DNA of 39,419 nucleotides from an uncultured Alphaproteobacteria bacterium. Lineage in GTDB: Bacteria; Pseudomonadota; Alphaproteobacteria; Sphingomonadales; SMXR01. Shown here in pieces: positions 5,920-11,730 of the stretch. Positions within the stretch are counted from its first letter, which is position 1, and each line of letters opens with the position of its first letter. The DNA lies in contig CAKZLM010000056.1 of NCBI GenBank assembly GCA_937126915.1, positions 1 through 39,419 of the forward strand. The letters are read 5' to 3'. The notes beneath the pieces were generated by a model that had not been told where the DNA came from, made no database searches, and saw nothing but the letters and a program-made list of their open reading frames with translations. The translations under genes were made by a program, and so were the position numbers.

Positions 5920-6408
5920 GACCCTCTCCCATTTATTCTTAATCTGCCCAAGTTAGCCTGAGTGAAACATTATTCTCCCATGCCTAAAAACTCGTCCACC
6001 GTCGACCACCTTTGTCCAATCAGCTTCTTTATCATCAGTTAAAGCTCGCCCCCTTCCGCTACCAACAAATATAGGCGCAATCATCTATCCCAAAAGCGAA
6101 TATCCCATAAGATTAGCCTCTGTCTGTGTCATCTGACTATTTGGCGCCATCAACAACAGCCGTTAGGCTCATCCACTATAAGAGTGAGCCCTATTGGCAA
6201 TGCCCGAAAACAGATTTAGGCACCCTCAAATCTAACACTAAATAAATTCTCCTTTAACACCTTGACACTTTCGTCGCTGCCTAAAGGCTTAATTAGGCGC
6301 ATTCCCGCCTCAAGTTCCGGAACTCACTCATTGCACGAACATGGGATAGTGCCATATTTTTTCATCATCTCTCTTGGGTTTTATCTTGTTCTGCCTTATA
6401 TAAGAAGC
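5920..6408. other. 489-bp intergenic region before the flavin hydroxylase
   Basis: No gene with a ribosome binding site is recognised. The only structure noted is a short inverted repeat, GGCTCA at 6168-6173 with TGAGCC at 6187-6192, which lacks a T tract. The distal end carries a promoter-like pair immediately before the ATG at 6409. The frame of the downstream gene stays open back to 6262, but the added residues (MTLSSLPKGL...) do not look like the family. Confidence 0.5.
6374..6402 (+). promoter_or_regulatory. Candidate promoter placing transcription start at the ATG
   Basis: TTGGGT at 6374-6379, a 17-bp spacer and TATATA at 6397-6402 predict transcription starting about 7 nt downstream, that is at or next to the ATG at 6409. 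No properly spaced Shine-Dalgarno sequence precedes that ATG, so the mRNA could be leaderless. Confidence 0.4.
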
Positions 6409-11076: not shown

Positions 11077-11544
11077 TTATTGCTGATCCATTTCCTCAGC
11101 TGGTTCATCAGTTGGCGTCACTTCTTCCACAGCTGGCAAGGCTGGTGGGTTCTCAGTGAAAGTACGCAAATACGCGATCACATCAGCACGCTCAGTGTCA
11201 CGGCGCAAACCAGCAAAGGACATTTTGTTACCTGGAATAGCGCGTGATGGACGCTCTAAATAGGCATCAAGAAGTTCATAAGTCCAAGGCGAACCATAAT
11301 TAGTTAGCGCATCAGAATAGTTGAAACCATCCTTAGAAGCCATTTCTCCACCAACAATATTATACAGGTTAGGACCGGTTTTATTATCACCGCCCGCTTC
11401 TACAGTATGGCAAGTTTGGCATTTCTTAAAGGTACGCTCACCTTTGGTGACATCACCCGCTGCCAAAAGAACCGCAAGGCTTGGACCCGCAGGAGCAGCT
11501 TCACCAGACGCTGCAGAAGCATCAGTCTCAGGCAATTCTACCAC
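11077..11544 (-). CDS. Cytochrome c heme domain (CycM-like), broken off from its anchor
   Basis: This open frame (155 aa from a GTG) contains a class I cytochrome c domain. The heme-binding CXXCH is [10 protein letters not shown] at about residues 39-48. A conserved [10 protein letters not shown] follows, and the axial methionine lies in [10 protein letters not shown]. The C-terminal tail is acidic and proline-rich. It matches the membrane-anchored CycM/c552 type that carries electrons from the bc1 complex to terminal oxidases. From the GTG alone there is no signal or anchor, so it could not reach the periplasm to receive heme. The same frame continues upstream through a TAG (11575-11577) into a typical anchor; see the next entry. 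The true gene is probably 11077-11667. It lies downstream of nudC. Confidence 0.8.
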
Positions 11545-11574
11545 ATAAGCTTTTCTCTCAGGCTCTTCAGCGTG

Positions 11575-11667
11575 CTAAAGCCTTTCAGAAGAAATGTTTA
11601 CAAACATAAACAGCAGAATACCGATTAGAACTGCTGCAGAAATTTTATTAAATTCAAAAGAATCCAA
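11575..11667 (-). pseudogene. N-terminal anchor of the cytochrome gene, ended by an in-frame TAG
   Basis: Read from a TTG at 11667 behind a strong AAGGAGG site, the frame gives (M)DSFEFNKISAAVLIGI..., one transmembrane helix, then SSERL and TAG at codon 31. Without a shift in frame the translation resumes as [16 protein letters not shown] and continues into the heme domain. CycM-type proteins start with just such an SFEFNKI anchor joined to a YVVE-like linker, so the two pieces are one gene. The TAG could be a true nonsense mutation, a sequencing error or a readthrough site. TAG serves as a normal stop elsewhere in this window (hpf, recR, the UbiH-like gene). Confidence 0.75.
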
Positions 11668-11730
11668 GGCTATGCCCTCCTTACCAGATGGTATGCTTGC
11701 CGACCCTCTCTACAGTCGGAATTCGGCCGG

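Follow-up and report, generated by a model that had tools for sequence, protein, structure and literature searches.

CycM (cytochrome c552) of Alphaproteobacteria, for example the product of cycM in Paracoccus denitrificans, combines a DSFEFNKI-type N-terminal anchor, a variable acidic/Ala linker and a class I cytochrome c domain with a CXXCH motif and a Met ligand. The P. denitrificans protein has been reported to be more effective than the soluble carrier at delivering electrons to complex IV (PMC8575270). In the window (the whole stretch of 39,419 nucleotides analyzed here, which is contig C56 of a 2.79-Mb genome assembled in 176 contigs), we found a gene with the same architecture and with end-to-end similarity to members of the CycM family. 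Unlike them, it carries an in-frame TAG at codon 31, which is absent from all 109 relatives that were aligned (drawn from two sets, with a few genomes present in both). When the minus strand was read and translated, the frame extended from a TTG start at 11667 to 11077 (Table 1). The first-pass annotation had described a TTG behind AAGGAGG, a membrane anchor, the TAG at 11575-11577 and a CXXCH-Met cytochrome domain, and this description proved exact. Alignment with the relatives showed the N-terminal anchor with an [M/L/V]DSFEFNKI-like start. The cytochrome c domain past the TAG was recognized by Pfam (PF00034, E=2.4e-10) as class I, with both the CXXCH motif and the downstream Met present in the translation. 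The anchor and the heme domain are separated by the TAG and do not lie in one uninterrupted frame. As assembled, the window gene is a disrupted cycM and not a working member of the family.

Table 1. Parts of the interrupted cycM gene and their positions in the window
Feature	Position	Strand	Remarks
Ribosome binding site AAGGAGG	11676..11682	-	8 nt 5' of the start codon; from sequence
TTG start and 30-codon cycM membrane anchor LDSFEFNKISAAVLIGILLFMFVNISSERL, SFEFNKI-type	11578..11667	-	Homologous to the anchor in 109 relatives
In-frame TAG, codon 31	11575..11577	-	Phe, Tyr, Ile, Val or Leu at this column in all relatives
Linker and cytochrome c domain completing the cycM frame; TAA terminator at 11079-11077	11077..11574	-	
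CQTCH heme-binding motif	11407..11421	-	From the translation
Probable Met heme ligand	11221..11223	-	From the translation; position inferred from the family motif

We then compared the gene with its relatives. The anchor and the heme domain formed one continuous gene in 109/109 of them, and among these are positional orthologues from two genera within the family of the window genome. The read-through protein matched all 60 of the related genomes searched, as well as 80 loci retained from a genome collection. It could be aligned along its full length with uninterrupted proteins (the best relative was 56% identical across residues 1-190, and E-values reached 5e-64), and the anchor half and the heme half were collinear in every matched relative. 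Given this collinearity and end-to-end alignment, the TAG interruption is more than a matter of chance. At column 31, 60 of the aligned relatives have Phe and 37 have Tyr, together 97 of the 109; the others have Ile (6), Val (5) or Leu (1), and none has a stop. The earlier reading had allowed that close relatives might instead carry a non-homologous anchor gene upstream. The comparison found a homologous, fused anchor and no such gene. In the window, the gene order is NlpC/P60-cycM-nudC-dnaX-recR; in relative G001 it is nudC-cycM, followed by a peptidase gene and an NlpC/P60 gene, and in G002 it is aminopeptidase-NlpC/P60-cycM-dnaX-recR. From this agreement, we conclude that the window gene is the cycM orthologue. 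A TAG that seemed to be shared with G001 (locus L013, identical to L035) was rejected, as it is the normal terminator of that gene, at codon 179. The TTG start codon also occurs in G001, G013 and G019 (L013, L007 and L005, respectively). Non-ATG starts recur more generally in cycM, with TTG in 12/92 and GTG in 8/92 of loci L004-L113, and TTG is found in several of the closer relatives. A search of viral contigs revealed no relatives.

The region behind the stop has accumulated no decay. The alignment has 33 columns with conservation above 85% among the relatives, and the window gene agrees with 32 of them; its root-to-tip distance in a tree of heme domains was the second shortest of 30. Because the heme domain is without decay, the lesion is either recent or not real. 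The earlier suggestion that it is young or tolerated holds.

An intact frame and a conserved heme domain past the stop are also what would be seen if the TAG were usefully read through, by a suppressor tRNA or by a near-cognate Tyr or Gln tRNA, so that full CycM is made. To evaluate this explanation, we surveyed approximately 671 kb of stretches from the 2.79-Mb genome. Of 471 long open reading frames in these stretches, 305 end in TAA, 89 (19%) in TAG and 77 in TGA, and within the window nudC, ubiH and recR all terminate in TAG. The first-pass annotation had cited recR and the UbiH-like gene as cases in which TAG acts as a normal stop and had considered general recoding unlikely; from the terminator counts, we likewise rejected it. 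The genetic code is standard, with no sign of a special code. No tRNA with a CUA anticodon was present among the 31 tRNA genes found, a set that is incomplete (tRNAs for Gln and Ile, for example, are also missing) and to that extent leaves some room for a suppressor; on the set as found, we rejected the suppressor tRNA. Programmed readthrough was rejected as well, since the stop is conserved in 0/109 relatives and no unusual RNA structure that might stimulate it follows the stop (folding of the 78 nt that begin at the stop was indistinguishable from that of shuffled sequence; z=0.16). Thus, two of the four options listed initially remain, a nonsense mutation and a sequencing or consensus error; neither a suppressor tRNA nor a readthrough signal was supported. 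Useful readthrough of the TAG seems to us unlikely.

One further observation could be taken in favor of readthrough. A search of the genome for release factors detected the gene for RF2 alone and nothing above the cut-off for RF1. However, hisS and prmC were also undetected: the hisS query found nothing in the genome, no prmC match passed the cut-off, and the next gene gave no match. In relatives, the order of these genes is ispG-hisS-prfA-prmC (L203 and L205). HisS is essential. Because an essential gene and prmC are missing alongside RF1, we read the absent hisS-prfA-prmC block as a probable assembly gap. A loss of RF1, striking at first, is therefore less likely than the gap. The undetected RF1 gene could mislead towards a claim of recoding, and the absence of its neighbors argues otherwise. 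It could also be imagined that RF1 is weak or lost in this lineage, that UAG is tolerated by near-cognate insertion and that full-length CycM is produced across the TAG, as in an early stop-codon reassignment. If so, the cycM TAG would mark an early stage of that process, but we consider this scenario extremely improbable. The genome is rated 99% complete, though hisS, prfA and prmC all went undetected. The RF2 gene, prfB, carries the classic programmed frameshift site AGGGGGTATCTTTGAC (L147, upstream of 2421, minus strand, contig C116).

We also investigated whether in-frame stops occur elsewhere in the assembly. A codon-score scan of the 671 kb indicated 22 places, nearly all of which were plain gene boundaries when inspected by eye; the scan is insensitive, as the cycM stop itself went unflagged. 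Two of the places fall within conserved genes, and neither stop is a TAG. One is a PRK07199 ribose-phosphate diphosphokinase-like gene with a single TAA at about 2963 in a frame that is otherwise intact (L152:2549-3496, minus strand, contig C5); its match to PRK07199 spans the TAA at 333.6 bits. The other is an acyl-CoA ligase gene with a TAA near 6139 and a frame change (L166:5696-7327, minus strand, contig C19), which resembles either a pseudogene or a badly assembled stretch. The two TAA lesions indicate that lesions here are not specific to TAG. In a homology survey with the proteins of G001 and G002, which was limited to the overlap between two partial samples, the stop in cycM was the sole in-frame stop over 33,491 aligned residues, and the reverse survey found none. 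In-frame stops are therefore uncommon in this assembly, but cycM is not the only case.

These surveys bear on whether the TAG exists in the cells. It might be a wrong consensus base, or a base of a minority strain picked by the assembler, and the cells' cycM would then be intact. This explanation is consistent with an intact cycM in all of the relatives and with a heme domain that shows no relaxation. The assembly is fragmented, at least one more of its conserved genes is interrupted by a clean single stop, and the essential block around hisS is apparently missing, all of which argue in the same direction. Against it, the lack of any other in-frame stop over the aligned residues of the homology survey shows that errors are not rampant. 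We regard a consensus error as a serious possibility that falls somewhat short of probable.

We consider it somewhat probable that the TAG is a recent nonsense mutation and that cycM is null. In this respect, the gene resembles an ordinary bacterial pseudogene or allele with a single nonsense codon: there is one stop, the ribosome binding site and the downstream frame are intact, and decay is absent. It differs from an ordinary nonsense allele in that the stop is known from an assembled consensus. The TAG, its intact flanks and the absence of the stop from relatives were observed directly. The consequences may be as follows. The cycM product is predicted to be a membrane-anchored cytochrome c that donates electrons to a heme-copper oxidase. 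The TAG, at the codon just past the transmembrane segment, would have arisen by one recent base substitution, translation would stop at 30 residues, and the anchor alone would be released. An internal restart, for example at GTG 11544, would yield a heme domain without anchor or signal, which would stay in the cytoplasm, heme-free. Cytochromes of the c type receive their heme on the outer side of the cytoplasmic membrane, and a restarted domain without an export signal would thus leave the allele null. The same GTG could begin a 155-aa heme domain in a functional split, in which the anchor peptide and the separately started domain are both used. However, the 155-aa product has no export signal to bring it to the site of heme attachment, and none of the 109 relatives is split in this way; we think such an arrangement very unlikely. 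Returning to the nonsense mutation, it would be somewhat surprising for a null allele to be fixed in the species, because every relative searched keeps cycM whole. The best reading is that the lesion is an ordinary one, due either to nonsense mutation or to a wrong base in the genome assembly. Taken alone it carries little weight, since environmental assemblies routinely contain single nonsense lesions. If it is real, a cytochrome retained by every relative examined has here been lost through a naturally occurring allele, which would argue in a small way that membrane-bound and soluble cytochromes c are redundant.

The loss of cycM would probably be tolerated for now. We found no second CycM-type copy in the genome. 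Contigs C67 and C40 encode two further, smaller cytochromes c, with lengths of 135 and 149 aa, that are uninterrupted and have signal-peptide-like N-termini, so that they are predicted to be exported, and these two intact proteins may cover the loss. The genome also contains two genes for heme-copper oxidase subunit I.
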